Below, piece by piece: positions 10,472 through 63,408 of a stretch of 64,000 bases of DNA (within the stretch, counting starts at the first letter, position 1; each line of letters opens with the position of its first letter). A program made the translations under genes and the position numbers. The notes beneath the pieces are model-generated. The model worked only from the letters and a program-made list of their open reading frames with translations. It was not told the DNA's origin and did not search any database. The stretch lies in assembly GCA_009829735.1 (NCBI GenBank), contig CM020619.1, positions 10,592,375 to 10,656,374 on the forward strand. The letters run 5' to 3'. Origin of the DNA: Pyropia yezoensis (lineage: Eukaryota; Rhodophyta; Bangiophyceae; Bangiales; Bangiaceae).

Positions 10472-10523
10472 GCGGCGCCACCAACCAGCGCGTGTGGAGG
10501 CTAGGAAGACCAGCAGCCGCGGT

Positions 10524-34133: not shown

Positions 34134-34583
34134 CAACCCAACCGACACCGACTTCGGCTGTTGGGGGGTGAGGCTTATACCTACTGAGTAGGGTGTCACA
34201 TGGACTCGGCAAGACTTAGGTTCATTAAGTTGGAGCGGACTTAGGCAAACTAAGTAAGCTACTGACTTCTACAAGTTTACTTGAAGGAGATGACTAACTC
34301 CGATAATCTCAAAGTAACCTAAGGCTTACACCAAGGTAAACCTTCAGCCAGGAGGCAAGTGACGAACCAAGAAGGTTGACCTTCATCAGTATTAACCAAC
34401 CAGGATGGGTTGGGGGAGGCGGAAAAGAACCGAGGCAAGCCACGACTAAGTCAAACGGGGTACTCCCCAATGGCAGGCATTGGTATCATGCAAACGCCCC
34501 AGCGGGGGATGAGTTCATACTCACTACTACCCGGCTACCATAAGGGTTACCGGGGCCCTCTCCCTCACAAACAATAGCACTCC
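34134..34583. other. 450-bp spacer between convergent pol and the antisense ORF
   Basis: This is the least GC-rich part of element A and lacks coding frames. The two genes run towards each other into it, so it probably holds both 3' ends. Several short inverted repeats occur, for example TTACCTTGG/CCAAGGTAA-like segments near 34335. Confidence 0.45.
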
Positions 34584-36953
34584 TCAGTGGGTAGACCCAC
34601 TGCCCGAGGGAGGCCACTCACGCGTAAGCGCGTATACCTCCGTGCTCCACCGGTCGGCAATCTCACGACGGTCAATCACCCGAGTTACCTCGGTGCATAG
34701 CTGGACGAGGGTGCTGCGGCCAGCCTCCACGTCCTCCAGAGCTGTCTGGAGGCGGTCAAGCACACCACCGAAGCAACGCGCTGACCCAACCAGCGCAGCA
34801 CCTGGGGGGATATCCCCCCAGCTAAGAGAGAGACCCTCCCGCATTGCGCGGGCAACAAGGGCGTCAACGCCCTCATACCAGAGACGGGGACCCCCTTCAT
34901 GCATGACAGGGGCGGGAGGTGACACTGGCGCAGCCAGAGGAGTCATAGGAGCCGACACGGCCACCACCGGAGCCGGTGGCGCCTGATATGAGGCCCGGTA
35001 GGACCCCACCGAAGGGGCTCCACCGTAACCCCGGCGGGGCTCCGCCCGACGACGGGACACCTCACGCTCCCCACCCGCAGAGCCCCACTCTCGGGGACGA
35101 CGACCAACCGCCGCCGGTATCCGGTTACCGAACCACGGGGCAAGGGCCTGAAGAGGGTCATGGATAACCATGGGAATACCCAGGTCAGCAACAGCCTCGG
35201 TGGACGCCAACCCATGGCAATTGGGCTCACCCGGCTGAGTACGCCGGATACGCAACGAGTGAAGAGGCAAGGGGGAAGCCCCAGCCTGCGGGTCCCGGTA
35301 CGGGGGAAGGGCCAACACCCCAGCCCAGTTCACGGCATCGTGAACAGCCAGCAGGGCCTCGAACTCCCGGGCCAACCCGGTCTTGGCGGCTATCAGGTCC
35401 ACGCCCAACTGCGCGATGTGCCGACGGACACATGTCGGAAGATGAAACAGGCGCCCCTGCCGGCGGACGGACAGCAAGAAGGAGGAAGCCTGCCCGAGGG
35501 TAACCTCAAGGGTGAAGGTACCCTGCAACGGGTGGACCGGCCGGGAGGCCAACACACTCCCGAAGTATCGGAGACAGGAGCCGGTGTCAAACCGGAAAGC
35601 AGGGGCGGGTTCCCACCCCTCCTGCCACAGAGGCGGGCGCACAGGAGTGTATACCGGCGCACGACCGTTGCCGGTCTGCAACGCACACGTTATATCGGTG
35701 CGGAACGCATCCGCCATGACACCATGGTTACGTCGCCAGCTCGACGCCGACTTCAAACCCGACATAGGCGGGTAGGGAGCCGTCAACGACAGATACGGGG
35801 ATACCCCCGGGTAATAATCAAAGTCGGGATACCGACCGGTATCGCCCACCGTCTCCCCAAACGCAACCGGCTCCGCCGCCGCCGCAATCCCCCGAGCACT
35901 AGCCGGGTAGTCAACCTCCCGCGGCAACGCGGGAGCAATCAGGTCGCATACCCCGAAGGCGGGGTCGAGGTAGACCTCACCCCGTCCCACCCGGGTGCGC
36001 CAGAGCTGCGCATGCCGGTCGTCCGGCTGACTCAGGATCCAATGGTGTTCCACACGCACCGCGTTCGGCTGGTTGACCAGCCGCACCAACTCCCGCTCCC
36101 AACTCGGGTCCACCCTGACGCGGCGGGAAGTCCCTCCAGAGAGACGCGATTGGTGGAAGTCCACCCTCATCCGCCCAGCGGACTCCATTGACTCTTGCAC
36201 AGTCATGCCTCGAACCCGAGCCACCAAGTCGGACATCGACATGGCGGGTTGACCCGCCGCCACGGCGACGCCGCCACCCAACGGGGCAACTCGGGCAGGA
36301 CCAGGAGGAGTCGGGGGCGCCGGGGGATGCCCCACCGGCAGATGGGCCGGCGCCGAAGGTGCACGAGGCCGAGGAGGAAGAAGAAGGGCGGGCGCCCGCC
36401 CGGAGTAGCTCCCGGAGTCCACTGCCATCGGGGTAGAAGACTCTTGACCATCACGCGTCCGCGGCACCGCGGGCAGAGCATCGCCGCCACCCGGGCCCGA
36501 CGAGGGTACCACGGGGGCAGCACGGGTAGACCCGCTACCCGCCGCAGCGGACACACCAACCGGGCGGGCACCCGCGCCGTCTTGACCCGCCGTACCGGCC
36601 GGGGTGCCGCCACTACCATCCGCCACGCCGGCGACACCGTCTTGAGGTAGATCCGCGCCGGCACCGGCGACAGAAGCCATCCGGGCCGCCGGAGGAGTAG
36701 CGGTAGAGGCCACCGCTGCACGCGGTTGTCCGCCACCCGACGGAGCCGTCGAGCCGCTACACACGAACGACAACCCGCCCGGCGCGCCTTCCGGGGCCAC
36801 ACGAACGGTCACCCGGTCGTCCTCGTCCTCCGACGAGCTCGCTAAGAAGCACTCGGCGGCGGTGGCAGAGACGGGAACGTCGTCCACCATCACCTCTTCC
36901 TCCTCCTCAAGCAGGAGGTCGTCCTCGCCCCCGGGTACCTGGGGGTCCGACAT
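34584..36953 (-). CDS. Antisense accessory protein of element A (aORF)
   Basis: This is a 789-residue frame on the strand opposite to gag-pol, from a true ATG at 36953 to a stop 450 bp from the end of pol. Residues 1-60 are acidic (EDDLLLEEEEEVMVDD and SSSEDEDD) and ~60-250 are Pro/Ala/Gly-rich. Residues ~255-560 look folded. The segment ~460-545 (LRYFGSVLASRP, SFLLSVRRQGRLFHLP) aligns with the antisense proteins of elements B and C. After another Pro-rich stretch the C-terminal ~90 residues are helical and include IADRWSTEV. It is not Gag, Pol or an obvious Env: there is no signal peptide, fusion segment or membrane anchor. Antisense ORFs in this position are known in some plant Tat-lineage Ty3/Gypsy elements; homology to those is untested. 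Its promoter should lie in 36954-37543 or the 3' LTR. Confidence 0.72.
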   Translation of the reverse strand: MSDPQVPGGEDDLLLEEEEEVMVDDVPVSATAAECFLASSSEDEDDRVTVRVAPEGAPGGLSFVCSGSTAPSGGGQPRAAVASTATPPAARMASVAGAGADLPQDGVAGVADGSGGTPAGTAGQDGAGARPVGVSAAAGSGSTRAAPVVPSSGPGGGDALPAVPRTRDGQESSTPMAVDSGSYSGRAPALLLPPRPRAPSAPAHLPVGHPPAPPTPPGPARVAPLGGGVAVAAGQPAMSMSDLVARVRGMTVQESMESAGRMRVDFHQSRLSGGTSRRVRVDPSWERELVRLVNQPNAVRVEHHWILSQPDDRHAQLWRTRVGRGEVYLDPAFGVCDLIAPALPREVDYPASARGIAAAAEPVAFGETVGDTGRYPDFDYYPGVSPYLSLTAPYPPMSGLKSASSWRRNHGVMADAFRTDITCALQTGNGRAPVYTPVRPPLWQEGWEPAPAFRFDTGSCLRYFGSVLASRPVHPLQGTFTLEVTLGQASSFLLSVRRQGRLFHLPTCVRRHIAQLGVDLIAAKTGLAREFEALLAVHDAVNWAGVLALPPYRDPQAGASPLPLHSLRIRRTQPGEPNCHGLASTEAVADLGIPMVIHDPLQALAPWFGNRIPAAVGRRPREWGSAGGEREVSRRRAEPRRGYGGAPSVGSYRASYQAPPAPVVAVSAPMTPLAAPVSPPAPVMHEGGPRLWYEGVDALVARAMREGLSLSWGDIPPGAALVGSARCFGGVLDRLQTALEDVEAGRSTLVQLCTEVTRVIDRREIADRWSTEVYALTREWPPSGSGSTH

Positions 36954-37531
36954 GGTGAAACCAGGGTAGCAGGGGCGGCCCGTCAGACAAGCCGTCGACG
37001 GCTACGACCCGGTACGGTGGGACAACCGGGACGAGCCAGGGAAGCGCGGGCACCCGCGCTTATGACCACAACCGGCCACGAAAAGCGCCGCAGGCACGCG
37101 GGTCGACCCGCGCTCCACGAGGCTACGAACGCGCTCCACCCAGGCACCTGGGCGGGCCGGGGCCACACCCCCGCACGGGGCAACCAAGAGGGGTTCACCC
37201 GGAAACCGCCCCCGCGAAAAGCGGGAGCGGCCGCCCCCATTCACTCGGTAACACGAGAGGGGCTCCCCTGCCACCAGACACCTGGTGGCGGATCCGCTTG
37301 CACCACCCCTCGGAAAGGGGGGTCGTGAACAGAAACCCGCATCGGGAAATTAACGGTCCGGAAAACGGATCGTGTGTGTACCACACAAAGGGGGGCACCC
37401 CCCTCAGACAACCTCGAAAAGGGGTGTCTGTCGCGACAGGGCGCAAAGCCCCACCCGACTGGTAAACGGTCACGCGACCCACTTACATTCGGTAACCCGA
37501 ATGCAACTCGACCCGAGGACGGGCCGAATCT
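36954..37531. other. Leader of the antisense ORF in element A
   Basis: This is a 580-bp non-coding region between the antisense start codon and the PPT. It is GC-rich with short direct repeats (CGCGCTCCACxxxGGC-like near 37115 and 37130). I see no clear TATA box. Confidence 0.35.
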
Positions 37532-37543
37532 AAGGGGGGGATA
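37532..37543 (+). promoter_or_regulatory. Polypurine tract of element A
   Basis: AAGGGGGGGATA directly precedes the 3' LTR. It is the expected primer for plus-strand DNA synthesis. Confidence 0.7.
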
Positions 37544-37906
37544 TGTAGCAACATGGTCGGCCGTATTGTGACCCTTATATTAGGGGGACTACTTCTAATC
37601 CTTGGCTTTCAATTTGAGAGTCCGTACTGGTCACGGTATCTATAAGTTACGTATGACCAGAGGGACTTGCATCTTGGGGTGGAGGGTAGTTAGTAGTGTC
37701 TCCGAGGGTTTATAACGTGGGGGCCGGCGGCGAATCCACCGCCGGCCAAGGCAGAACAACAAACCTCTCCCATTTGGGCTCCCATCTTGGTCCCGTGGCT
37801 TGCGCTCCAAGGACAGCAACCTTGGCCTCCCGGTGACGTTGGTGCCGATCCCCCTTGGTGAGTGTTCCCTGAGAGTGGACGTGCGACGGATTCCTATTGT
37901 GCTACA
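37544..37906 (+). repeat. 3' LTR of element A
   Basis: 363 bp with the same termini as the 5' LTR and seven substitutions. The 9-bp hairpin is intact at 37722-37747. Confidence 0.93.
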
Positions 37907-38760
37907 CGAGCGCTTTGTGGCGGGGGTGGGGGGGGGATCGGGGGGGGGGGGGGGGGCGCTCCCGCCGTCGTTGCCGCAGGCCCCGGCGGTGAGCGCGACC
38001 CTCCCAGCGCCGCGCCTGGGGCCGGCGCCGACGCGGCGGGGGGCTCCGGCGGCCTGCTCGCGGCCGCTGGCGCCCCCCCCGCTAAGCACAGGGGGGCTGC
38101 CGTCGGCGGCGGGGTGGCGACCGCGACGGCGGCGCGCGGCGGCAAGACGACAACGGTCGGCGGCGGCGGTCTCGGCGTCGTGGGTGGAGGCGCGTCTGGC
38201 GGGGGGGGGGTGGGGCAGCTGTCGGCGGCGAGGGCGGCGGCCGAGCGCGCGTCGGCGGGCGCTTTGTGGGGGGGGTAGGGGCGGGGTCGGGGGGGGGCGG
38301 GGGGGGGGTCGGCGGTGGGTGGGGGGGGCGCTGCCGCTGTCGTTGCCGCCGGCCCCGGCGGTGAGCACGGTCCGCCCTGCGCCGCGCCTGGGGCCGGCGC
38401 CGACGCGGCGGGGGGCTCCGGCGGCCTGCTCGCGGCCGCTGGCGCCCCCCCCGCTAAGCACAAGGGGGCTGCCGTCGGCGGCGGGGTGGCGACCGCGACG
38501 GCGGCGCGCGGCGGCAAGACGACAACGGTCGGCGGCGGCGGTCTCGGCGTCGTAGGTGGAGGCGCGTCTGGCGGGGGGGGGGTGCGGCAGCTGTCGGCGG
38601 CGAGGGCGGCGGCCGAGCGCGCGTCGGCGGGCGCTTTGTGGGGGGGGGGGGGGCGGGGGTCGGGGGGGGGGGGGGGGGGGGCGCTCCTGCTGTCGTTGAC
38701 GCCGGCCCCGGCGATGGGCGCTATACCCTCTTCACCACGGATGGCGCCGGGGGCCGGCGC
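37907..38760. repeat. GC-rich tandem repeat, units of ~350-370 bp
   Basis: The landmark GCTTTGTGG recurs at 37912, 38261 and 38633. Units contain long G runs, CTGCTCGCGGCCGCTGGCG and CGGCGCGCGGCGGCAAGACG. The third copy is incomplete and grades into other sequence at 38760. The same repeat lies left of element A. Open frames here are low-complexity and I do not call genes. Confidence 0.8.
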
Positions 38761-39839
38761 CGACGCAGCCTAGGGCTCAGGTCTGGTGGAGCGGGGTAAG
38801 GGGGAGGGTCGTGGAGTGCGAGTGGTGGATGTGTTCGCGGGGGGGGTATTTTTTTCAGTGTGTGTTTGAGGGCTGTGGGCGGGAAAGACGGAGGGGAGCT
38901 CTGCAGGGAGGGCAGCTCTCTGAGCGTGGGGGCCGCTGACTGCGTGGGCAGTGCTTTTGAAGTCTTCGGTTGTGGTTTTTTTTTGCGCGGTGCGGAGGAC
39001 CTCGGGGGCTTCCTCGTCGATGACGGGGGAGTGTGCTTGCTTTTTTCGGCAGGCGCATCAGCCTCGCCAGCGCCCCCACCCCCAGCTGCCGCAGCGCGCC
39101 CGCCACAACCAGCCACGGGCGCCGCCGCCGCCAGCCGCGCGACCGCCCCCACGACCACCGCCGCCGCCGCCACTGCCTCGTCCCGCGCCGACGTACCCGG
39201 CGCCGCGGCCGCCGCGGCGGCCACCGCGCCCGCAAGGCCTTCAAGCAGCGCCCGCGCGACGGCGGCCACCCCCCCCCCCCCCCCCCCCCCCCCGCGGCGG
39301 CGGCCGGTACCCCCCCCCCCTCCCCCCCGCGGGGAGGGCCGCCGGTGCGCTGCCGGCGCCGTCGCGGAGGCCGCCCGTTGAGGGTGGCGGCGGCGGTGGG
39401 GGCGGCGCGGCCGGCGGCAGCGCGTGGGCGCGGGGGAGGGTGATGACGCAGCCGCCGGCGCCACCGCCACCGCCGCCGCCGCCGCCCTTTTGCGCGACCG
39501 CCTCTGGAGGCAGCACGACGGGCGGCAAGCCGACCGCCGCGGTGATGGCCGCGCCCGCCGCGGCGGCGGCGGCAAGCCGCCGGGTCCACCCCCCCCCCCC
39601 CCCCCCCCCCCCCCGCGGCGGCCCCCCCCCCCCCCCCCCCCCCCGCGTCGGCCACCGCGTCCTGCAGCAGCGCCGCGAGCGCCGCCAGCAGCGCGCACCC
39701 CGCCAGCGACATGGCCGACCGCACCGCCGGCGCCAACCGCGCCGCCGCCGCGGCGGTGCCGGCGAAGGCGGCCGCCGCCGGTCAGCCAGCTGACGTGCCG
39801 GGCGCGGCGGCAGCGTCGCCGGCGGCGAGGCTAGCGGTC
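38761..39839 (-). other. Poly-C-rich region with a possible frame-broken secreted/membrane ORF
   Basis: From the ATG at about 39712 on the minus strand, MSLAGCALLAALAALLQDAVADA looks like a signal peptide. Homopolymer runs of 15-25 C (39271-39292, 39590-39615, 39626-39645) then shift the frame. Ala-rich hydrophobic segments appear in the other two frames, and one continues to a Lys/Pro/Ser-rich tail ending near 38721. A real gene whose frame is lost in miscounted homopolymers is possible. I see no family similarity. Confidence 0.22.
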
Positions 39840-42800
39840 GCGGGGGGGCGGCGCCAAGCGTAGATGGGCACCGCCCCCCACAGGAAGACTGCGCCACCAA
39901 CAGGAAGGGGCTGCCGGCGGCGGGGGGGCGGCGCCAAAAAAAGGCGCCGCCCAAAAGAGAGAAACGGTGCTGCCGGCAGCAGGCGGCTGCCGTCGGCGGG
40001 GGGGCGCCGACAAACCTGTATGGGCGCCGCCCCCAACAGGAAGACCGTGCCGCCGACAGAAGGGGGCTGCTGGCGGCGAGGGGGCGGCGCCCATAAAGCC
40101 CAGGAGCCGCCGAAAAAAGAGAGACGGCGCCGCTGACGGGGGGCCGCTGCCGGCGGCGGGGGTGCGGCGCCAAACCTAGATGGGCGCCGCCCCCAACAGA
40201 AGGACCGTGCCGCCGACAGGGAGGGGCAGCTGGCGGCGGGAGGGCGGCGCCCAAAAAGCACAGGTCCCGCCCAAAACAGCTTGACGGCGCCGCCTGCTCC
40301 AGGCGGCTGCCGGCAGCGGAGGGGCGGCGCCCGAAACACACAGGCGCCGCCTAAAAGAGGTTGACGGCGCCGCCGTCAAAAGGCGGCTGCCGGCGGTGGG
40401 GGGGCGGCGCCAAACGTCGATAGGCGCCGCCCCCCACAGGAAGTCCGTGCTGTCGACAGGGGGGGGCTGCTGGCGGCGGGGGGGCGGCGCCCAGAAAGCA
40501 AAGGCGCCGCCCAAAACAGGCTTACGGCGCCGCCGGCTGCAGGCAGCTGCCGGCGGCGGGAGGGCGGCGCCAAGCGTAGATGAGCACCGCACCCCACAGA
40601 CAGACAGTGCCGCCGACAGGGGGGGGCTGCTGGCAGCGAGGGGGCTGCGCCCAAAACGTCTGAGAGCCGCTTAAAAAAGAGTGACGGCGCCGCCGACGGG
40701 GGGCGGCTGCCGGCGGCGGGGGGGCGGCGCCCAAAATACACAGGCGCCGCCCACAAGTTTCCGAAGATGCCGCCGGCAGCAGGCGGCTGCCGGCGGCGGA
40801 GGGGCGGCGCCAAACGTACATTGGCGCCGCCCCCCACAGGAAGACCGCGCCACCAACAAGAAGGAGCCGCCGGCGGCGGGAGGGCGGCGCCCAAAAAACA
40901 CAGGCGCCGCCCACAAATTTCCGACGATGCCACCGGCGGCAGGCGGCTGCCGGCGGCGGGGGGGCGGCGCCAAACGTACATTGGCGCCGCCCCCCGCAAA
41001 AAGACCGGGCCGCCGACAGGGGAGGGCTGCGGGCGGCGGGGGGGCGGCGCCCAAAAAACACAGGCGCCGACTGAAAAAGGCAGACGGCGCCGCAAGCAGC
41101 AGGCGGCTGCCGGCGGCGGGGGTGCGGCGCCAAGCGTACATTGGCGCCGCCCCCCGCAAAAAGACCGGGCCGCTGACAGGGGAGGGCTGCGGGCGGCGGG
41201 GGGGCGGCGCCCAAAAAACACAGGCGCCGACTGAAAAAGGCAGACGGCGCCGCCAGCAGCAGGCGGCTGCCGGCGGCGGGGGGGCGGCGCCAAGCGTATA
41301 TTGGCGCCGCTTCCCGCAAAAAGACCGGGCCTCCGACAGGGTGGGGCTGCGGGCGGCGGGGGGGCGTCGCCAAAAAAACACAGGCGCCGCCCACGAATCG
41401 CCGACGATGCCCCCGGCAGCAGGCGGCTGCCAGCGGCAGGGGGGCGACGCCAAACGTAAATGGGCACCGCCCCCCACAGGAAGACCGTGCCGCCCACAGA
41501 GGGGGGCTGCTGGGGGCCGGGGGTCGGCGCCCAAAAAACACTGGCGCCGCCCAAAAAATGACAGACGATGCCGCCGGCAGCAGGCGGCTGCTGGCGACGG
41601 GGGGGCGGCGCAAAGCGTAGATGGGCACCGCCCCCCACAGTAAGACCGCGCCACCAACAGGAAGGGGCTGCCGGCGGCGGGGGGGGGGGCGGCGCCCAAA
41701 AAACACAGGCGCCGCCCAAAAGAGAGAGACGGCCCGGCCGGCTGCAGGCCGCTGCCGGCGGCAGGGGAGCGGCCCCAGTCGTAGATGGGCGCCGCCCCAA
41801 ACCGTAAGACCGTGCCGCCGTCAGGGGGGGGCTGCTGGCGGCGGGGGGGCGGCGCCAAACGTAGGTAGGCACTGCCCCCTACAGAAAGACTGGGCCGCCG
41901 CCAGAGGAGCGGCCTCTGGCGGCGGGGGCGCGGCGACCGAAGAAGCCCAGGAGCCGCCCAAAAGAGAGAGACCGCGCCGCCGACGGGGGGCGGCTGCCGG
42001 CGGCGGGGGGGCGGCGACAAACCAGTGTTGGCGCTGCCCCCAACAGACAGACCGTGCCGCCGACAGGGGGGGCTGCTGGCCGCGGGGAGGCGGCGCCCAA
42101 AAAGCACAGGCGCCGCCCGAAAAAGGCAGACGATGCCGCCGCCAGCAAGCGGCTGCCGGCGGCGGGGGGGCGGCGCCAAGCGTAGATAGGCACCGCCCTT
42201 CACAGGAAAACCGCGCCACCAACAGGAAGGGGCCGCCGGCGGCGGGGGGGCGGCGCCCAAAAAACACAGGCGCCGCCCAAAAAAGGAAAACGATGCCGCC
42301 GGCTGCAGGCGGCGGCCGGAGGCGGGGGGGCGGCGCGCAAGATCCACAGGCGCCGCCCAAAAGAGGGAGACTGCGCCGCCGGCAGCAGGCGGCTGCCGGC
42401 GGCGGGGAGGCGGCGCCAAACGTAGACTGGCGCCGCCCCCGACCGTAAGACCGTGCCGCCGACAGGGGGGGGCTGCTGGCGGCGGGGGGGCGGCGCCAAG
42501 AAAGCACAGGCGCCGTTCACAAAATGCCGACGATGCCGCCGGCAGCAGGCGGCTGCCGGCGGCGGGGGGGCGGCGCCAAACGTAGATACGCACCGCCCCC
42601 CACAAAAAGACTGGGCCGCCGACAGGGGGGGGCTCCTGGCGGCGGGGGCGCCGCGCCCAAAAAGCACAGGCGCCGCTCAAAAGAGGTAGACGGTGCCGCC
42701 GACGGGGGACGGCCGCCGGCGGCGGGGGGGCGGCGCCAAACCTGTATGGGCGCCGCTCCCAACAGGAAGACCGTGCCGCCGACAGGGGCGGGGCTGCTGG

Positions 42801-44515
42801 CCGCAGGGGGGCGGCGCCCAAAAAGCACAGGCGCCGCCCAAAAGAGAGAGACGGCCCCGCCGGCTGCAGCCGGCTGCCGGCGGCGGGGAGGCGGCCAAAG
42901 ACGTAGATGGGCGCCGCCCTCCACAGGAAGACCGTGCCGCCGACTGGGAGGGGCTGCTGGCGGCGGGGGGGCGGCGCCCAAAAAACACAGGCGATGCCCA
43001 AAAAAAGACAGACGATGCCGCCGGCAGCAGGCGGCAGCCGGCGGCGGGGGGGCGGCGCCAAACGTAGATACGCACCGCCCTTCACAAAAAGACTGAGCCG
43101 CCGACAGGGGGGGGCTGCTGGCGGCGGGGGCGCCGCGCCCAAAAAGCATAGGCGCAGCCCAAAAAAGGCAGACGGTGCCGCCGACGGGGGGCGGCCGCCG
43201 GCGGCGGGGGGGCGGCGCCAAACCTGTATGGGCGCCGCCCCCAACAGGAAGACCGTGCCGCCGACAGGGGCGGGGCTGCTGGCCGCGGGGGAGCGGCAAC
43301 CAAAAAGCACAGGCGCCGCCCAAAAGAGAGAGACGGCCACGCCGGCTGCTGGCGGCTGCCGGCGACAGGGGGGCGGCCAAAGACGTAGATGGGCGCCGCC
43401 CCACACAGAAAGACCGTGCTGCCGAGAGGGGGAGGCTGCTAGCGGCGTGGGGGCGGCGCCCGAAAAGCACAGGCGCCGTCCAAAAGAGGTAGACGGTGCT
43501 GCCGGCAGCAGGCAACTGCCGTCGGCGGGGGGGTGGCGCGAAACGTAGATGGGCGCCGCCTCCTACAGAAAGGCCGTGCCGCTGACCGGGGGGGGCTGCG
43601 GGCGGCGGGGAAGCGGCGTCCAAAAAAAACAGGCGCCGCCTTACAAGGGCAGACGATGCCGCCGGCTGCAGGCGGCTGCCGGCGGCGCGGGGGCGGCGCC
43701 AAGAGAGCACAGGCCCCGCCCAAAACAGGTATACGGCGCCGCCGGCTGAAGGCGGCTGCCGGTGGCAGGGGGGCGGCGCCAAACGTAGATGGGCGCCGCC
43801 CCCCACAAAACGACCGGGCCGGCGAGAGGGGGGAGCTGCTGGCGGCGAAAAGGCGGCGCCCAAAGAGCCCAGGAGCCACCCAAAAGAGAGAGACGGCGCC
43901 GCCGACGGGCGGCGGCTGCCGGCGGCGGGGGGGCGGCGCCAAACCTGTATGGGCGCCGCCCCCAACAAAAAGACCGTGCCGCCGACAGGGGGGGGCCGCT
44001 GGCGGCGGGGGGGCGGCGCCCAAAAAGCACAGGCCCCGCCCATAACAGCTTGATGGCGCCGCCGGCTTCAAGCGGCTGCCGGCGGTGGGGGGGCGGCGCC
44101 CAAAACACACAGGCGCCGCCCAAAAGAGCGAGACGGTGCCGCCGGTACCAGGCGGCTGCCGGCAGTGGGGCGGCGGCGCCAAACGTCGACAGGCGCCGCC
44201 CCCCACAGGAAGACCGTGCCGCCGACAGGAGCGGGGCTGCGGGCGGCGGGGGGGCGGCGCCCCAAAAACACAGGCGCCGCCCAAAAAAGGCAGACGGTGC
44301 CGCCGGCAGCAGGGGCCTGCCGGCGGCAGGGGGGCGGCGCCAAACGTAGATGGGCACCGCCCCCCACAGTAAGACCGTGCCGCCGACAGGGGGGGGCTGC
44401 CGGCGGCGGGGGGGCGGCGCCCAAAAAGCACAGGCGTCGCCCGAAAAAGGAAGACGGTGCCGCCGGCAGCAGGCGGCTGCCGGCGGTGGGGGGGCGGCGC
44501 CAAACGTAGACAGGG
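39840..44515. repeat. 160-bp G-rich satellite, about 29 units (dimer of 80-bp halves)
   Basis: Each unit has two half-units sharing CTGCYGGCGGCGGGGGGGCGG followed by CGCC. One half continues AAACGTAGATGGGC, the other CAAAAAGCACAGGCGCC. For example, half-unit starts fall at 42393, 42473 and 42553, 80 bp apart. The whole array is strand-asymmetric (G-rich on plus). Every half-unit offers four or more G runs, so G-quadruplexes are possible at a regular 80-bp spacing. The minus strand is open for up to ~900 codons in single frames. Because 160 is not a multiple of three, such frames rotate through all unit frames and are probably a composition effect. Confidence 0.88.
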
Positions 44516-44925
44516 GCCGCCCTCCGGCCGCGCTCCCCGCCCGCCGTGGGCGCTTCCCCCCCCACCCTTGCTGCCGGCCGCCGCCGCAGCGGCTCCTCCG
44601 TGTACGGCTGCAACCATTCGTCACACAGCGGCCGCGGCGGCAGCAGGTGCAGCGCCGTGCCCGTAGCGGCGTCGACCAGCTCGGCGCAGCCGTCGGCGCT
44701 GGCGGCCGTCGCCGCCGCTCTGCCCCCGGCCAAGGCAGCCGCAAGGGCCCTGATTCGGCCCCAAGCCTTTGATCGTTGCCAGCCACAGGTCGGCTCTTGT
44801 CCGACAGTTTGCCATTCGATGCCAAGAGACGTCGCCGGGCGATCGAATACCCTCACATCGCCCAAAAAACCAGAGCGAAGACAAGAAAACGATGCGATGT
44901 CAGTAAAGGAAAATAGTCCCAGCAT
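44516..44925 (-). CDS. Hypothetical unique-sequence exon or gene start beside the satellite
   Basis: From an ATG at 44925 about 135 codons of non-repetitive sequence read through to the satellite. The segment RIRALAAALAGGRAAATAA...CAELVDAATGTALHLLPPRP and CDEWLQPYTEEPLRR looks more protein-like than the surrounding DNA. Beyond 44515 the frame continues into satellite repeats. It may be a gene fragment, an exon, or chance. No family is recognised. Confidence 0.25.
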
Positions 44926-44975
44926 CTTGCTCTTCTAGGGTGAAAGAGAGAACAGCAATTAAAACGATGCAGATG

Positions 44976-46064
44976 TCAAGGCGGCCCCAGCTGACCAGGA
45001 AAGGCCAGAAACACGCCCTCCAATGGCATCCCTTCCCCAGTCATCTCGGGGAGGTTGCGCAGCACCTGCCGTCGCGCCTCGCGATAATGGCCTTGTATAG
45101 ATGATAAATAGATAGAAGAAAATGCGAGAACATGAGCAATACGATCAGGCAGCAGCGGATGCCAATACACCAAGCTGCGCACTCCATGCTTGAGGTCCTT
45201 AAAAACAGGCTCAATGGCAGAGAAGTCGGGTGAATAAGAAGAGAGACGGATACGAGCGACCCCGTTCTCTTCAAAAATCCCATCCGCAAACGCAGTGTGA
45301 ACAGAGGCGTTATCGTAAACCACCACGCAGTCACTGGGCTGCTCTGACCAAGGCAAGCCAGGGTGATACGCATTCATTCTCCGCACAAGGCTGGTACAAA
45401 ACAAAACAAAATCATCACCATTCAATGCAGGGGGAACATCGTTAACAAAGAGCTCCGAAATACCACGAGTATACGATATGGCCACCGTGGAAGAGAAGCG
45501 CGCGCGGGCCCGAGGGTCCGGCGCAAGCGCTTCCAGAGGTCGACCAATGGGCGCCCCGCCGCGCCGGCGCACCATGGCCTGACCAGCCACGTGCGTTTCG
45601 TCGAGGACGACAATGCAGCGATCTGGTACTTGGCGGTACAACCGACAAAAAGCCACCCTTAACGCCTGCGACCTCTCCAGCGCCAGTCGCTCGACCTGCT
45701 TCACCGAAAATCCGATCTTGTTCAGCATCCGAGATAAAGTGCTTGTCAACACTGGCCAGCTCTGCTCCCAGCCAGGAAGGTCCGCCAGCTTCCCGAATAT
45801 TGCCTCCATTTCCCAAAGAAACATTTCTGGGTGGGACCGCACCAGGGTGTTCAGCGCCGCCTAAAACTCTGGATTGAAGACCGAGGCGTCCGCATGCCTG
45901 TTGTGGATGACATCATCGTTCCACGGGGAGCCGTGGCGCTGGAAATTGGCCCACCATTGCTTCGCAGTTGCAAGCTTCCACCCGACGTGCTCCAAAATGG
46001 ACGCCCATGATTTTCCTTGGCGCCGGTTCTCGATGACCTGCCATCGGATAGCAATAGGGTACAT
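44976..46064 (-). pseudogene. Second DD33E transposase, interrupted by one in-frame TAG
   Basis: The N-terminal helix-turn-helix (from ATG 46064, with GKSWASILEHVGWKLATAKQWW) and the catalytic part are in the same frame. They are separated by a single amber codon at 45861-45863, at about codon 68. The core keeps VVLDETHVAG, VVYDNASVH and YSPDFSAIEPVF, with 33 residues between the second Asp and the Glu, as in the copy at 474-1508. Upstream of the core, LNTLVRSHPEMFL aligns with VKHLVEAEPAAFL of the other copy, so the reading frame through the TAG is homologous. The catalytic residues are intact. The break is recent, or the TAG is read through or removed by splicing. No terminal repeats were identified. 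Confidence 0.8.
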
Positions 46065-47332: not shown

Positions 47333-47356
47333 GTCTACTTTTTGGGGGATGCACAA
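47333..47356 (-). mobile_element. Orphan MITE end
   Basis: TCTACTTTTTGGGGGATGCAC with TA immediately after matches, in inverse, the terminal sequence seen at 24536 (TTGTGCATTCCCCAAAAAGT) and is related to the MITE ends at 24.1-24.5 kb. No opposite end was found nearby. Confidence 0.5.
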
Positions 47357-49419: not shown

Positions 49420-49609
49420 GCTACATAGCTCTTTCCCTAGTCCGGCACGTCCTCGGGCCGAACCAGGTGCCACCGTGCACAGCCTCGAGCACGTCCACAC
49501 CGGTGCCGAGGTCGAGCGTCTTCACCCTGGTCACGATCACCTGCTCCGGTTCTCTGCCCCCCTTCTCTCCTTCACCTTTGCCCTCTCGTTCCCCCGGAGT
49601 CTGGACGTC

Positions 49610-51727
49610 ATGTCCAGTTCCGAGATCCAAGCTGGGCCCGTGGTTCCGGCGGCGAGTGTTGCGGAGGAGAACTCGGGTAGTCGCGCCCCTCTCCTGCCTC
49701 CGGTTCCTCGGGTGTCGATGTCGGCGCCGGTCGCCACGGCGGGGACGGATCGGGTTCCCCCGGCTTCTGTGATGCACCCGGTCGAGACCCCCCCGGTGGG
49801 TCTCCCGGAGATGCTTCTTGGGCAGGACCCTCTGGCGGCCCGGCGTTACTCCACGGTGGTCGGCAACGCCGGCGCGGCCCAGTGCCAGCAGGATTGCTTG
49901 GACCTCTGGCGCAAGGAACTCCAGCGCGGGGTCTTGACAGAGATGGATAAGTCTCGTCTTCACACGGCGGACCAGATGCGCCTGGCACAAGACCGCTCCC
50001 ACAGCTTCTCGGGTTCCTCCTGGGTTGCTCGTCTGGAGGATCTCCCCTTCGCGCTGGTGCTGGATCTGCCCATGACCGAGCGTCGCGTGTCCGCGTCCGT
50101 TCTCCGGTGGCCGGAGGAGGAAGGGTACGTCCACCGGGCGCTCAAGGTCTGGGACGAGGCGCTCAAGGGGTCGGGGAGCCTGAACTGCGACCCCCGTCCG
50201 AGCATGGTCGCTCTGGAGCCGCCTTTCCGGACCCGGAAGTACTCCAAGTTGTCACCGGCACGGGAGCAAGGCGAGCGACGCGGCCGTCAGCGTGACTTTC
50301 TCGTGAGCTGCAACCATCAGGAGTTCTGGAAGCTGGATAAGGCTAACCGGGCGGCGTACTACCCCAAGGTCATCCCGCAGCAGCAGGAAGTCGAGATCCC
50401 GGTCGGGTTTGCTCCTTCCAGCATCCCCTTCACCTGGTCATTCTTGGACGCCTTGACTCAGGCGTCGATCAAGGGCTTCTTCCACTCGATCCCGTACATG
50501 ATGTACACGTCCGAGATGACAGTCTTGGCGGCCAACCACTGGCTTCACGAGGTCTTGGTGTCCAACCGGCTTTGGTTTCTCCCTGACCTCCTGATGGTCT
50601 GGATTGTCGACAAGTTGACCGTCGACTTCCTGTGCAGCCAGGACGAAGAGTACAAGGGGCTCTTCCAGGCGATGATTGACTTCCGGCGTCTGGTGCCGGT
50701 GCATGACCGGAACTTCTTGAACGCGATTGCCGACCAGAACCGCCCGCGTCGGGATGGCTTCGGCTGGGCGCAGGTGGTCTACCAGTCTTCTCCGGCCAAG
50801 GTGCAGCTGGCGACGCCGCTTCCGGCGTGGCCGCAGCTAGGTAGCTTTCCTGCCCCGGCCGCCCTTGATCTTCTGCCAGTTGGGCCGCCGGTGCAGGAGT
50901 CGGGATGGGCCGCGGCGGTCGGTCAGGCGTCTGCGGCGGCTGCGCTTCCTCCTGTTGCACCTGTCGCCCCGGTGGCCTCGCCTGAACCGTCGCCGGCGCG
51001 TTCACGCCCTGTTCCGGCTGTGCCGGTACTTCAAGCTCCTCCGGCACCGCGCCTGTCTGCGGCGAGTCTGGGGGTGACCGTGCGGTCGCCTACCACTCCG
51101 GCCGCTCCGCCTCGGACGCCTTCTTCCAACGCCGGCGGCGCTGTGCCTCCGCTGGAGTTGGGTACTCCGGTTTCGGGGGCCGTTGTGGACCGTCCGGTGG
51201 TGTCATCCTCGGGGCGGTTCGACATTCCGGCGCCGACTCTGCGCCTTACGCGCTTCCGAGTGCCTGACTGGTACCTGATCCAAGGTGGTCCGACATGCGA
51301 CCAGTACGACGTCGGTATGATTGAAGACCAGCTGGGTCGTCTTCCGGTGCTGGTTGAAGGCGTTGGGTCCTCCCTGGTGCTGGGTACGTACGCCAGCGTC
51401 TTGAACAACGTGGTTGACCGGGTGTTTGCTTGCGCGGACAGCGGCCAGATGTCGAACAGCCCGGTGGTTGGCGAACTTCTGGCGACCTTGACGCGGCATG
51501 GCTTGGCCCAGCAGTGGTCAGAAACCTTCACTGGCTTCCAGGGGCGCCGACGGGCATATCTGGATGAGCGGGAGCCCCCGGCAACTACCGGTACTACTCC
51601 GATGGCGTCATACCGGGATGCACCGCGCCCACCGCACTACGTCATCCCGCCTTCCTCCGGTTCCCGTCGTGCCGCGGAGGCAGCGCTGGAGGACTCTCCC
51701 GGGGCACAGCGTCCGCGCCGGGAGTAG
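49610..51727 (+). CDS. Antisense accessory protein of element B (aORF)
   Basis: About 705 residues from the ATG at 49610 (MSSSEIQAG). An earlier in-frame ATG at 49418 lies in the LTR/PPT region and is unlikely. After a Pro/Ser-rich start, residues ~60-400 look folded. The segment from AAYYPKVIPQQQEVEIPVGF through LAANHWLHEVLV, LWFLPDLL and FRRLVPVHDRN (~255-370) aligns with element C's antisense protein. Then come a long Ala/Pro linker (~405-530) and a helical C-terminal domain (DWYLIQGGPTCDQYD, LAQQWSETF) that resembles the C-terminus of element A's (IADRWSTEV). The frame is open although pol of the same element is broken. It stops 145 bp from the pol stop. Function unknown. Confidence 0.75.
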   Translation: MSSSEIQAGPVVPAASVAEENSGSRAPLLPPVPRVSMSAPVATAGTDRVPPASVMHPVETPPVGLPEMLLGQDPLAARRYSTVVGNAGAAQCQQDCLDLWRKELQRGVLTEMDKSRLHTADQMRLAQDRSHSFSGSSWVARLEDLPFALVLDLPMTERRVSASVLRWPEEEGYVHRALKVWDEALKGSGSLNCDPRPSMVALEPPFRTRKYSKLSPAREQGERRGRQRDFLVSCNHQEFWKLDKANRAAYYPKVIPQQQEVEIPVGFAPSSIPFTWSFLDALTQASIKGFFHSIPYMMYTSEMTVLAANHWLHEVLVSNRLWFLPDLLMVWIVDKLTVDFLCSQDEEYKGLFQAMIDFRRLVPVHDRNFLNAIADQNRPRRDGFGWAQVVYQSSPAKVQLATPLPAWPQLGSFPAPAALDLLPVGPPVQESGWAAAVGQASAAAALPPVAPVAPVASPEPSPARSRPVPAVPVLQAPPAPRLSAASLGVTVRSPTTPAAPPRTPSSNAGGAVPPLELGTPVSGAVVDRPVVSSSGRFDIPAPTLRLTRFRVPDWYLIQGGPTCDQYDVGMIEDQLGRLPVLVEGVGSSLVLGTYASVLNNVVDRVFACADSGQMSNSPVVGELLATLTRHGLAQQWSETFTGFQGRRRAYLDEREPPATTGTTPMASYRDAPRPPHYVIPPSSGSRRAAEAALEDSPGAQRPRRE

Positions 51728-51872
51728 TACTTGGAGGCAAGGAGGGTGAGAGTCTTGGGAGAAGCGAGGAGGGAAGAGGCGGAGAGAAGGGTTGCTCGAG
51801 CGGGTGTTTGTTTTCCTTGATTGTTCCATGCTTGCATTGCGTGTTTTCCTTGATATACCCGATCCCTTCTTC

Positions 51873-54800
51873 TCAATCCTCTTGTTCCGCATCCGTTGCG
51901 GGTGAGCTCGGCTCGTCCTGAGGGTCTTGATCGGCCCCGTCCTCTTGGTCCTCCTCCGAGTCCGACTCCAGGATCTTGCCGGCTCTGGCCACTGGAGTGC
52001 CCTCTATCCCGTTCCGTCGCGTGTAGGCACAGACATCCGCGATGGGTAGCCGGTTTGAGGGTTCCCAGGTATCATCTGCCGGGTTAAAACCGAACCAGCG
52101 TACTCGCAGGTACAGGCGTCCGTCTCTCCAGGCATGGTCCACAAACTTGACGTAGACATATTCCCGACCTTCTTTTTGGCATAGCCAGGGTACTGCGGCC
52201 CGCTTGCGCCGGGTCAAGTCCCGTTGGGTTGGCGGTGGAGCTCGGGTGACATGGTCGCTGCTCACGCGGTACGGGGAGCCATCCACGTCTAGAAGAAAGG
52301 TCCAACCGTCCGTATTCAGGATCTCATAAGGTCCATCCGTCTTCGAGTCCAGCTTCCCCCGGGTCTTGCTATGGTTGTCCACAAAAACCCAGTCGCCACC
52401 ACCCAGTTCCTTGTTCTTTTCCCGAACGCCCTTGTCATAGCCCCGCTTGTATCGCTCCTGGGTCTTCGAGATTGACTCCTTGACTCTTGGGAGCAGGAGC
52501 TTCAGTTGTTCCAGGAACTCATCCTTTGCCTTGGGACCTGACTTCAGTGCAGGCTGGAGACCATCTGGTATTCTTTCCAGGGAGAAGTTGGTCAGCCGCC
52601 TTGGGGTGACAAAGTCGAGTGGGGCGACTCCCGTTGTCCGGTGAACTCGGGAGTTGTAGGCTAGAGTGAGGACAGCCAGGAGCTCGTCCCAGTCTTCTTG
52701 GTGCTCCTCCACGTAGTGCCGTAGCATGTCTACTAGGGTCCGGTTGAATCGTTCCACCTGGCCGTTCGTTTGAGGGTGGTACGTCGTAGTGTACAAGTTC
52801 TTGATGCCCATCAGGTCACAGACTCCTTGGAAGAACAGGGATGCAAACTGGGGACCGTTGTCGGTTAAGACGGAGTCTGGAGGGCCGTAGGCAGCTATCC
52901 AGTACTCGCAAAAGGCTGACGTGACATCCAGAGCCGTGATGGTCCTCAGCGGGATTGCTCGAGTGAACTTGGAGAACCGGTCACAAATGATGAGCAGGTA
53001 TATGTTGCCACTGGATGTTTCAGGTAGGGGCCCCAGGATGTCCATGCTTAAGCTTGCAAAGGGCTCCGCCGCAGGGAATAGGCGTAGCTTAGAAGTCTTC
53101 TTCCTCTGGGACAACCGGTTCCTTGCACACGAAACACAAGCCTCCAGGTACTTATGGACGTCACTGGCCATGGTTTCCCAGTAATAGTGCATACATCCGA
53201 TTGATACCAGGATGTACGGCCTGGGGAGACGAGTGCTCCAGGCGTAGGATGTCAGCTCGTAGGCCCCGGGGTACGTAGACTTGAGTGGCCCCATCGAAGG
53301 GTGACACCCGTACTAGGAGTCCGTCCGTAGACTCGGAGAAACGACTGTTCCGGTTCAGGTCCATTTAGTGGCGAAGCTCCAAGCATTGAGGATCCGTCAG
53401 TTGTGCCTCCAGCATCCGGTGAATGGTCACCGGTTGATGAGCTTCAGGTGTCTCATACAGGGGAGCGTGCCAGCCACGTCCGACATTCGGGAGGATGAAG
53501 CAAGGTATTTCCTCCGGGATAGGACCGGTATCGGCTGCAGGAGTCTCCAGCCGGGACATGGTGTCGGCGCAGTGGTGCTCCCTCCCTGCTCTGGTGCACA
53601 CCTTGTACTTGAACTCCGAAAGGCGTAGGCACCACCGGGCGACCCTTACTTGACTGCTGTCCATGCATAGCAGCCACCTTAGGCTGGCGTGGTCCGTCCG
53701 GATGAGGAACTCTTGTCTTTCCAGATATGGCCGTAACAGGAAGCAAGCCCAGACGACTGCCAAGCACTCGCGCTCGGTCGTGGAATAGTTCTTCTCAGCT
53801 GGAGTCAAGACGCGACTGTAGTAGCCTATCGGGAGAAAGTGCCCATCAGGTTGCCGCTGGAGTAGTGAGCACCCCACCTGGACGCCACAGGCATCCGTCT
53901 CCAGAACAAACTGGCCCTCCCGCTTGGGTAACGCCAGTACTGGAGTGGTGGTCAGGCGCTTCTTGAGCTCTTCGAAGGCCGCGGTCTGCTTCTCGTCGAA
54001 CACCGGGAGTTGTGCGGGAAGCTTCTTGCTGGTCAGCTTGGTCAGTGGCCGGGCAATCAGAGCATAGTCCCGTACGAACCGGCGATAGACGTTGCACATA
54101 CCGAGGAAGCTCTTGAGATCCGTCTGGGTTTTGGGTTGCCGTGCATGCCGGAGGGCCTTGATGTTCTTCTCATTGACTCGGAGCTCCCCCGGACTCAGCA
54201 CATGCCCCAGATACTCCACCTCAGTCTCAAACAGGTGACACTTCTCGGCCTTGAGGGTAACTCCAGCCTTGGACAGGAGGGCCAGGACCTCCCGAAGGTG
54301 CTCCAGGTGTTCCGCTGGGGTCTTGGAGAAAACGATAATGTCGTCTAGGTAGACCAAACATGTTCTCCACCTTAGCCCGGACAGGATGATGTCGATGGCT
54401 CCTTGGAAGGTCGCCGGAGCATTGGTGAGACCAAAAGCAAGACGCTTGCACCGGAATAGTCCCAGGTGGCACGTGAAGGTGGTCTTGTCCTTGTAATCGT
54501 CAGCCAGAGGGATCTGCCAGTAACCGGCATTACAATCCAGCGTCGAGAAGAGGGTGGCATCACCAAGAAAGTCGAGGCAATCATCCATCCGGGGTATCGG
54601 GTATACGTCCTTGACTGTCATCTCGTTCAGGCGCCGGTAGTCAACGCAGAAACGGAAGGGACCGCCGGTTTTCGGGACGACTACCACCGGGAAAGCCCAC
54701 TCGCCATCAGACGGCTCGATAACATCCATCTTGAGCATCTCGTTAACCTGCTTCTCTATCTCATCCCGGCGATGAGGTCCGGCCCGATATGGTTGCTTGT

Positions 54801-55407
54801 GTACTGGCTTAGCTTCCGGCTTGAGTTGAATCCGGTGTAGAGTGGCGTCCATCTTGCCCAGCTCTCCCGACCACAGGTGCCGATATTCCTGGAGAAGCTT
54901 CTCCAGTGCCTCCTTCAAGTCGGGAGGGACATTTTCTTGCTTGGCCTTCGGTATCCCGGGTGGTGCTTGTTCGGGTTTCGGAGTAGCGCTGCCAGCCTGC
55001 TCTTGCTTCGGAGGTACGTCTAAGGCCGTCAAGTTGGATGCCAGTTCTTGTTGCAGGTTCAGGAGGTCTTCCTTGCTCATAGCACGGGCGGATCCCCGGT
55101 AAGGCTCTGCTGTACCAACTCGGGTGCCCTTGGCGAGGGTTATTGGCTTCCGGCTCACGTTGACGATTAGCACCGAGAACGGGGTGTGCCTTTCTACCTT
55201 CTTGTGATGTCCGTGGGCCAAGTATAGCCGGTGTTTCACCAGAAATTCCTTACGTCCGTAGATCAGGCATTGACCTGCAATCCGGGTCGTTACTAGAACC
55301 TTGGTCTCCGAGCGAGGAGGTAGGAGCACCGGTTTGAAGAGAGTCAAGGTAGAGGGTGGGATGCGTTCCCTCTTGCTCTTGGCTACACGAACCTTGGCGT
55401 CCAGATG
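51873..55407 (-). pseudogene. pol: Pol of element B, truncated by the gap and broken
   Basis: The visible part starts after the protease. Reverse transcriptase has FRFCVDYRRLNEM, FGLTNAPATFQ and YLDDIIVF, and RNase H has VLETDACGVQVGC and RTDHASLRWLL. An in-frame TAA at 53365-53367 then interrupts the linker before the integrase. A frameshift near 53175-53195 follows, just at the integrase zinc region (HPGINRMY / YYWETMASDV). Integrase continues with SMDILGPLPE, VLTDNGPQFAS and HPQTNGQVERFN. A chromodomain (YLRVRWFGFNPADDTWEP) and an acidic tail follow. Both lesions lie within about 200 bp, so this copy cannot make full Pol. Confidence 0.88.
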
Positions 55408-55907
55408 NNNNNNNNNNNNNNNNNNNNNNNNNNNNNNNNNNNNNNNNNNNNNNNNNNNNNNNNNNNNNNNNNNNNNNNNNNNNNNNNNNNNNNNNNNNNN
55501 NNNNNNNNNNNNNNNNNNNNNNNNNNNNNNNNNNNNNNNNNNNNNNNNNNNNNNNNNNNNNNNNNNNNNNNNNNNNNNNNNNNNNNNNNNNNNNNNNNNN
55601 NNNNNNNNNNNNNNNNNNNNNNNNNNNNNNNNNNNNNNNNNNNNNNNNNNNNNNNNNNNNNNNNNNNNNNNNNNNNNNNNNNNNNNNNNNNNNNNNNNNN
55701 NNNNNNNNNNNNNNNNNNNNNNNNNNNNNNNNNNNNNNNNNNNNNNNNNNNNNNNNNNNNNNNNNNNNNNNNNNNNNNNNNNNNNNNNNNNNNNNNNNNN
55801 NNNNNNNNNNNNNNNNNNNNNNNNNNNNNNNNNNNNNNNNNNNNNNNNNNNNNNNNNNNNNNNNNNNNNNNNNNNNNNNNNNNNNNNNNNNNNNNNNNNN
55901 NNNNNNN
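55408..55907. other. Assembly gap (500 N)
   Basis: Exactly 500 undetermined bases, a conventional placeholder length. The real sequence must be longer: it should contain gag, protease and 5' LTR of element B, plus the 3' LTR and the first part of the antisense ORF of element C. Confidence 0.95.
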
Positions 55908-57270
55908 GTTTCCTCAACAGTCTGCTGCCAGTAAGGAGCAGTACTATCCGAAGAAGCCCGAGTGGTGGCCTCAAGTTGAGGTCCCCTACGGGTTCCCGGC
56001 GTTGTTGCCCCGGTTGCTTGACCACTTCGGCTCCGTCATGTTGACGGCTGCCCCTGATCACCTGGTGTGGGCCATGTTGGCCACCCAGTGGCTCCTCGAG
56101 GTCATGTCGACCTGGGTGTCCTGTGTTCAGCGGCGGGGGATGCTCTGGCATCTCCCCCTCCGGCTCATCCAGGGTTTGGAACAGCTCGCCCCTCAGCTAG
56201 TTGCTGAGGGGTGCTCATCAGGACAACTCACTCTACTTGAGGAGATGCTCCGGCTCCATAAGTTTATCGAGTGGGAGAGCATTGAGCACAAGTTGCGCCG
56301 CCCCACTCGTGGGCCCAAGGACGATGGCGCACTTCGCCAGTTCGTGTGGGTCGCTCGTGAACTTCACGACGGCCGTGTGGTCCTACGAGAGGGGTTGGGC
56401 ATCGGGGACTACCCGTATGCCCCGGGGGTGGATCGCCACACTGCGCCACCCCCGGACAAGCCCATAGTTATGGCCGTGCCGTCCTATGATGACCACATGA
56501 CTCAACCCACTGCGAGAGCCCCAAGTCGGGGTCGCAGTTACACCCGGGTACCGCCACCTCGGCGGGCCCCTCCGCTTCCTCCGGTTCCTTTCCAACCTCA
56601 CGGGAACATCCCGATCAGCGTGGCCGTGGAGTCTTCCACCCCGGTGTCCCCCAACTTGGGGGCCACCCTCCTGACGGTATACCCCAAGTTGGTGTTGCCG
56701 CCCAAGCCTCTAACCTCAGAGATGATGATCACCACGTTGGTGCGCACCATTTCCTGGTTGGCCGCGTCGACCGCAACCCTACAGAGTTCCGAGACTCCTC
56801 AACTTGAGGAGCGCGTTCGTACTGCAGTAGCGACCGCGAGTTGCGAGTCGGTGGCGGAGTTTATGACAGCCGAGTTGGCTCGTATTGGGGCTATTATGCC
56901 CCAGCCAGCCCCACTTGGGCGTGGCAAACGTCGCGCGAGCCGGGCATACTCGCCTCCTCGCCGTCGTCGCCGACACTCTCGGCGCTCTCCCTCCGTGTCG
57001 GAAGACGAGTTGTCTTACTCCGTCTCGGAGTCCTCTACCCCGTCGGAGACGGAGTCTGTCCAGCGTCTGCGTCGCAAACTTGCGCGCAAGACCAGGCAGA
57101 AGAGTGGCCACGGTCGGCGCCACTTGCGCGACCGTGAGGGGCGCGACGGTTCCGACTTGGAGCCGCCGCCCCCTCCAACGAGTGGAGACCGTTATCGGCG
57201 TGGGTCTCGCCGCTCGCCTCCACGGGAGGAGGAGGGCCGTGGAGTGGGAGAGTCTAGCATGCGTGCCTAG
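55908..57270 (+). CDS. Antisense accessory protein of element C (aORF, N-terminus in gap)
   Basis: About 453 codons are visible, running out of the gap to a stop 111 bp from the pol stop. The segment EQYYPKKPEWWPQVEVPYGF, LDHFGSVMLTAAPDHL, LATQWLLEVM, RRGMLWHLPLRL and LRLHKFIEW aligns with element B (YYPKVIPQQQEVEIPVGF...LAANHWLHEVLV...LWFLPDLL) and element A (LRYFGSVLASRP...RRQGRLFHLP...VHDAVNW). After a Pro-rich linker comes a helical segment (~56690-56900). The C-terminus is strongly basic and SR-like (RRRRRHSRRS, RRKLARKTRQKSG), suggesting nucleic-acid binding or nuclear localisation. The basic tail is absent from A and B. Confidence 0.75.
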
Positions 57271-63308: not shown

Positions 63309-63408
63309 GTTGGCTGACGATCCGTATGACACGGTCCAAGACCACCGTTCCTCTGAGACAGAGGGCCCCCTACACCCGGGTGCACCCGGAGGTAAAGTTT
63401 ACCTCTGT

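Follow-up and report, generated by a model that had tools for sequence, protein, structure and literature searches.

A stretch of 64,000 nucleotides of the genome of the red alga Pyropia yezoensis (GenBank assembly GCA_009829735.1, contig CM020619.1, positions 10,592,375 to 10,656,374; hereafter the window) carries three Ty3/Gypsy retrotransposons, A, B and C, each with a long open reading frame (ORF) that lies antisense to gag-pol, converges with pol and precedes the 3' long terminal repeat (LTR). An earlier note, made from the letters of the window alone, had described these antisense ORFs (aORFs), and we found them as described, with the ATG at 49610 from which aORF B was counted turning out to be internal (residue 65 of a frame open from 49418) and aORF C being readable from 55909. 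We conclude with high confidence that one Ty3/Gypsy group of this alga has, between pol and the 3' LTR and on the strand opposite to gag-pol, a genuine third gene whose products form one homologous family, for which purifying selection was measured in family A, and which exists in family A in two deeply diverged versions between near-identical flanks.

Element A lies on the plus strand between two direct repeats of 98.1% identity, a 5' LTR at 27187..27549 with TGTAGCA...TGCTACA ends and a 3' LTR at 37544..37906, flanked by the 5-mers CGGGC and CGAGC, an imperfect 5-bp target duplication. A motif directly inside the 5' LTR (27551..27569, plus strand), common to A and to a C-family copy on another contig (L040), is probably the primer binding site. 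The gag-like ORF (27769..29958, plus strand) has a weak zinc knuckle under the cut-off (E 0.072) and is followed by pol (30042..34133, plus strand) with protease, reverse transcriptase (RT), RNase H and integrase, for which the Pfam families RVT_1, RT_RNaseH and Integrase_H2C2 pass their cut-offs and the rve and protease matches fall under theirs. The aORF of A (34584..36953, minus strand) encodes 789 aa and begins 590 bp from the 3' LTR. From N to C terminus its product consists of an acidic N-terminus, a segment rich in proline, alanine, serine and glycine (P/A/S/G), a conserved central domain (residues 435-545; 35319..35651), a P-rich linker and C-terminal helices (about residues 714-777; 34623..34814), the last of these predicted as a block with a local confidence score (pLDDT) of 70-83 in an AlphaFold2 model.

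Elements B and C follow one another on the minus strand, with an assembly gap of 500 N (55408-55907) that covers their junction and the start of aORF C and presumably also hides the 3' LTR of C and the gag and 5' LTR of B. aORF B (49610..51727, plus strand; 705 aa from the ATG) has its central domain at residues 281-406 of the frame from 49418 (50258..50635). It is open although pol B is broken, as the earlier note had remarked: the integrase end (51873..53294, minus strand; Pfam rve 5.7e-12, with a weak Chromo match of 2.4e-4 under the cut-off) and the remaining piece (53365..55407, minus strand), which is cut by the gap, are in different frames. Of aORF C (55909..57270, plus strand) 453 aa are readable, compared with 647 aa from the ATG in other copies, and its central domain (55942..56283) is delimited by the segments matching A and B in BLASTP. 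Element C continues with pol (57382..61365, minus strand; RVT_1 and rve over cut-off, and a weak C-terminal Chromo match of E 0.0016 under it), a gag with a zinc knuckle (61362..63332, minus strand; PF00098 1.9e-5) and a 469-bp 5' LTR (63428..63896, minus strand) that is a 99.0% match to the 5' LTR of L040 (1280-1748). L040 itself has 469-bp LTRs of 98.9% identity, a perfect GCCAC duplication and a 647-aa aORF before its 3' LTR, about 340 bp from it, so that the aORF is an integral part of the element. Between the stop of the aORF and that of the convergent pol lie 450 bp in A, 145 bp in B and 111 bp in C. Outside the 3' LTR of A, a GC-rich sequence (37909-39175), partly a 372-bp tandem repeat, also adjoins the 5' LTR of L040 (23-1281 of that piece; 95.6% identity); elements A and C may both favour this repeat as a neighbour.

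The window contains 75 ORFs of at least 200 aa, several of them in low-complexity arrays, and since GC-rich DNA yields many spurious ORFs, length alone is no proof; homology and the ratio of nonsynonymous to synonymous substitution rates (dN/dS) carry the case. A central segment had been proposed to be shared by the three proteins. In BLASTP of two sequences this was clear for A and C (6e-9 over 115 aa; 1.7e-9 with full-length C) and modest for B and C (7e-5; 5e-7 with full-length C), whereas direct homology of A and B was not convincing (best match 0.017, low-complexity or patchy). The motifs quoted for the segment are present, except that the spacing of 'LA..WL.EV' differs by one residue between B and C. 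When profile scores were compared with those of 2000 shuffled controls keeping local composition, none of the shuffles scored as well as the real sequence for the A profile against C, 18/2000 did for C against B and 3/2000 for a joint A and C profile against B; with only A in the profile, B is missed (373/2000). The position of B became decisive once a fourth family, D, was included. In BLASTP, D matches C strongly (1e-46) and B (2e-8), a second version of the A protein called type 2 (2e-7) and A itself (1e-5) significantly, and a C and D profile scores 30.8 bits with B, 22.3 with type 2 and 20.6 with A, with 0/2000 shuffles as good for each; profile similarity beyond composition was one of the tests that the earlier note had set beforehand. 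Because D links to all the others in this manner, the aORFs of A, B, C and D can be regarded as shown by homology to encode one protein family.

Similarity at the C-terminal ends is more restricted: the A profile picks out B (2/2000 shuffles as good) and the B part A (26/2000), while with the A profile C is missed (829/2000) and D scores weakly (76/2000). The B part finds neither C (425/2000) nor D (381/2000), and the C part finds none of the others (A 425/2000, B 1558/2000, D 235/2000). A protein search with aORF A, in which the best 8000 candidates were scored, returned five relatives from Pyropia vietnamensis that are 32-52% identical; searches with B and C returned one near-identical protein each and nothing else. 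Three of the P. vietnamensis gene models (P0005, P0006 and P0008) lack internal segments of a fourth (P0004), a pattern that would arise if gene prediction had called introns within the ORF.

Family D emerged when seven other Gypsy loci of the integrase list were examined over 3.6 kb of their 3' regions, starting 900 bp past the H2C2 motif. One of these, L067, has antisense ORFs that BLASTP aligns weakly with the last part of B (0.002 over 51 aa), and in two further members of its family the antisense frame is open, over 668 aa in L068 and 665 aa in L069. In L067 the aORF is interrupted by repeat-like, low-complexity sequence (441-2056). The fetched 3' regions of the other six loci (L061-L066) gave best aORF matches of E 0.065 by tblastn, 0.075 with the A and C profile and 0.21 with the C and D profile; these six amount to about three lineages, the pairs L070/L072, L071/L075 and L073/L074 being 96-97% identical in integrase. 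In an unrooted integrase tree, a branch with support 1.000 sets A, B, C and D apart from the six other loci, with C and D nearest to one another and A outermost; integrases are 38-64% identical among the four families and 25-29% identical across the split. Families A-D have in common the central domain, the antisense position and membership of one integrase group, suggestive of an aORF that was present in their common ancestor and inherited along with pol.

The aORF of family A is under purifying selection. Between the window copy and type 2, dN/dS is 0.290 over 779 codons (95% bootstrap 0.236-0.347), far under 1 as expected of the selected protein that the earlier note had postulated, and falls to 0.183 (0.123-0.249) in the centre of the protein (residues 240-560); 51% of the changes are at third positions, and open pieces of two further type-2 copies gave 0.29 and 0.34. 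In the same comparison, +1 and +2 shifted frames and two of the three antisense frames gave 1.1 to 1.8, and the remaining antisense register, which shares its third positions with the aORF, gave 0.41. The adjacent pol has a dN/dS of 0.095, so the aORF is constrained, less than pol. Two D copies (L068 and L069) gave 0.42 (0.27-0.68), and the window copy of C against another copy 0.34 (0.06-1.4), a pair too similar to judge. That the aORFs are chance long ORFs, as the 75 ORFs of the window and their low-complexity arrays might invite one to think, is refuted by protein homology across families and species together with dN/dS, and we give this reading practically no credence. We also regard as very unlikely a regulatory RNA function of the antisense transcript, for instance as a source of double-stranded or small interfering RNA, in which the ORF would be incidental. 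Such a role has been raised as a possibility for plant antisense ORFs (PMC7264820), and the 3' ends of the pol and aORF transcripts, which converge, could overlap, but constraint is at the codon level in the aORF frame and protein homology extends across diverged families and to the 32-52% identical proteins of another species.

Ten fetched A-family copies fall into two kinds. Five are of the window type (type 1; 90-96% protein identity over the main matches) and the other five are of type 2 (59-64% over the main matches), one of which, L045, matches over only 77 aa at 71%. Among 11 copies, window included, those of type 1 are 89-97% identical to one another in aORF DNA and those of type 2 94-97%, as against 70-78% for pairs of unlike type, with two type-2 copies compared over only 1.5 kb or 0.36 kb and one between-type pair giving no match; the window aORF and type 2 are about 71% identical in DNA. 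When one type-2 copy was profiled against the window in 150-bp steps, identity was 89-99% in integrase/pol, dropped to 61-85% over positions 34241-36940 and returned to 87-100% from 36941 to the LTR. In BLASTN of the same copy, a 93% match to pol ends at 34245 and a 93% match on the LTR side starts at 36900, in the first aORF codons. The divergent island (34241..36940) thus takes in most of the spacer between pol and aORF and nearly the whole aORF. Synonymous divergence (dS) between A and type 2 is 0.775 (0.678-0.903) in the aORF and 0.234 (0.178-0.296; 462 codons) in the adjacent pol.

The simplest account of this pattern, and in our judgement a likely one, is that recombination, through template switching or gene conversion, exchanged the island as a cassette. 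The alternative is faster evolution of the aORF through diversifying selection or a local mutation hotspot. Its protein is indeed less conserved than adjacent pol (dN 0.225 versus 0.022), and pol beside the island is 93% identical as against 98% in the RT stretch, so that divergence is not wholly confined to the aORF. Faster protein evolution alone, however, cannot explain the island, because noncoding DNA inside it, the spacer, is equally diverged (61-73% identity) and noncoding DNA just outside is not (87-100%). Synonymous divergence of the aORF, moreover, exceeds that of adjacent pol by a factor of more than three, the two intervals do not overlap, and the types are discrete, not graded, in the 11 copies compared; we therefore consider faster evolution improbable as an alternative to recombination. 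Types 1 and 2 are each 45-53% identical to four P. vietnamensis proteins and 67% identical to each other over aligned residues, and since they are nearer to each other than to these proteins, the split seems to have occurred inside the lineage of the window species.

None of eight aORF proteins matched a Pfam family at E<=10, and a profile search of the PDB gave just two matches, at E 1.3 and 6.2, and thus no solved relative. Acidic residues number 18 (A) and 16 (type 2) in the first 60, and basic clusters are found in C, where they form an RS-like tail, and in D, B and type 2, alongside P/A/S/G-rich arms. A crude leucine heptad pattern of the basic leucine zipper (bZIP) kind is absent from A, type 2 and C and present in B and D, with no Pfam match to bZIP. 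No transmembrane stretch was found in A, type 2, B, C or D, the highest 19-residue Kyte-Doolittle mean being 1.54, on which grounds, together with the antisense orientation, we reject Env, in agreement with the lack of Env hallmarks reported before. A duplicate gag is likewise not supported, there being no similarity to the gag ORFs of A or C. A structural protein, either Env-like or a second capsid-like particle protein, would suit a site between pol and the 3' LTR, where env is placed, and a central domain predicted, with low confidence, to be mostly helical; given the orientation, the absence of membrane segments and of any likeness to gag, and the lack of a structural match, we regard such a role as unlikely.

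The explanation that we favour joins the gene to its transcription, its product and its exchange. The promoter for antisense transcription would lie either in the LTR itself or in the 340-590 bp that separate the 3' LTR from the aORF start codon; expression from this side is probable because 590 bp (A) or about 340 bp (the C copy) separate ATG and LTR and this stretch is 87-100% identical between types in A. A scan upstream of aORF A with a bacterial promoter model, not meant for this organism, found no promoter-like site. The protein, with its acidic or P/S/A-rich arms, helical central domain, C-terminal helical segment and, in most families, basic clusters, would be a nuclear accessory factor serving its own element, its most likely task being control of LTR transcription or silencing or of nuclear pre-integration steps, and template switching or gene conversion would let co-expressed copies swap its versions as a cassette. 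Taken as a whole, from gene to antisense transcription, nuclear accessory factor and cassette exchange, we hold this explanation to be somewhat better than even. We favour a nuclear accessory regulator because in maize Grande the antisense gene is driven by a promoter of its own, lying upstream, and encodes a protein that is nuclear (PMC7264820), and the acidic N-termini of A and type 2 and the basic clusters of C, D, B and type 2 support a nuclear role; as a specific assignment, nuclear regulator is tentative, and by our own estimate falls short of an even chance.

VANC proteins of VANDAL transposons offer a comparable logic for a different function, that of an anti-silencing factor freeing its own family from host silencing. 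An exchangeable, fairly fast-evolving gene encoded by the element, in families with many near-identical copies (as in the list for C), would fit this function, but no sequence or structural link was found and we think it rather doubtful. It is equally speculative that the antisense gene is an exchangeable recognition module, the cassette supplying a factor matched to given LTRs or to a host silencing pathway, with swaps resembling those of viral host-range or counter-defence genes in an arms race with the alga.

The same explanation has to be set against the state of the copies. The genome searched comprised 107.5 Mb in 11 contigs, and the matches listed there number 57 for aORF A (38 without stop), 58 for B (42 without stop), 76 for C, queried with its near-twin P0010 (74 without stop), and 70 rows from 69 copies for D (59 rows without stop), counts which overstate intactness since such lists hold best matches only. 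To avoid this bias, copies were picked through pol DNA instead. Fifteen of 40 A-family pol matches at 97-100% identity have a listed full-length aORF match within 600 bp of the expected place, nine of them, window copy included, without a stop; in one further copy the match is 652 bp off. Among the remaining 24, ten were fetched, and a recognisable aORF was found in all ten (one of just 77 aa), as it was in seven of eight C copies, most of them near the top of a list of 40 pol matches. The gene is thus recognisable, whole or broken, throughout or nearly throughout both samples, in keeping with the expectation that it should not be absent from most family members.

Several points nevertheless weigh against our interpretation. 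The ten A copies are mostly broken, with one clearly intact and one cut by the end of the fetched piece, although, being pol copies that lack a listed full-length aORF match, they lean to the broken and divergent; of the eight C copies, four are intact. Thirty A loci pooled gave a ratio of nonsynonymous to synonymous polymorphism (pN/pS) of 0.58, with 0.66 in one antisense register and 0.93-1.18 in other frames, and eight B sequences gave a ratio of 0.31, all of these loci having been chosen by protein similarity, which biases the ratios low. The island was profiled in a single type-2 copy, and adding A to the C and D profile weakens the match to B (11/2000). The two AlphaFold2 models are poor (mean pLDDT 38 and 48): the first is confident in the C-terminal helices alone, and the second gives the central domain four helices and a hairpin at low confidence, with no fold recognised. 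Foldseek returned none of 120 matches at E<=0.001 (best 0.28) for a low-confidence model as query. Finally, A is without a basic cluster by the simple rule used, so that a nuclear signal common to the families is not demonstrated.

Antisense genes after pol are known in flowering plants, where their role is called unknown (PMC11963269, PMC7264820), and the same layout occurs in a fungal element, again of unknown function (PMC7264820). The aORF-3R of plant Tat-type elements (Grande gene23, RIRE2, Retand ORF4, that is TRP28, PF04195) is alike in being an antisense ORF between pol and the 3' LTR (PMC7264820). Here, in contrast, the PF04195 family (Transposase_28) was unmatched at E<=10 in the eight aORF proteins and in the genome, where no candidate passed an initial screen run without a plant positive control, and membership of TRP28 is not supported. 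The host is a red alga and not an angiosperm, one backbone carries two aORF types, and the pol of C and of B ends in the weak Chromo matches given above, both under the curated cut-off (none is listed for A), lack of a chromodomain being a mark of the non-chromovirus Tat/Retand backbone. Because Transposase_28 was not found and the pol of B and C ends in a weak chromodomain match, we do not file these elements under plant Tat/Retand or under Boty, a non-plant Gypsy element (Botrytis/Sclerotinia) whose antisense ORF likewise follows pol and precedes the 3' LTR, compared here by description only (PMC7264820). HBZ of HTLV-1 and other antisense retroviral regulators, which act in the nucleus, resemble the aORFs in being encoded by an antisense gene near the 3' LTR (PMC11963269), and differ in that A, type 2 and C lack the bZIP-like heptad by the crude pattern that B and D match. 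In Athila, Bagy2 and similar elements an Env-like third ORF also follows pol, on the opposite strand to the one used here, and the present proteins have no transmembrane stretch. Among the titles and starts of abstracts listed in searches for algal and red-algal cases, which covered few subscription journals, none describes an antisense ORF in a red-algal retrotransposon. On the question posed at the outset, whether this is a new algal family or a distant plant relative, the aORF looks by sequence like a separate red-algal family: a new protein family in a variant of a known layout, the surprise being the probable exchange of cassettes. A red-algal family that has no detected sequence link to the plant and fungal cases, occurs in several element families, has measured selection and comes in two cassettes points to repeated origins of such genes and to a function that the element needs. 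Two natural cassettes on nearly the same element, in addition, make function directly comparable, as the effect of a differing antisense gene alone.

Elsewhere in the window, a 1.9-kb direct repeat of 99.7% identity (10447-12348 and 15047-16948, 4.6 kb apart) possibly represents the long LTRs of another recent element. The region from 39200 to 44800 is P/R-rich and repeat-like, with densely overlapping long ORFs that are likely spurious coding. A 288-aa ORF (44976-45842, minus strand) resembles, by its motifs, a DDE transposase of the Tc1/IS630 type.

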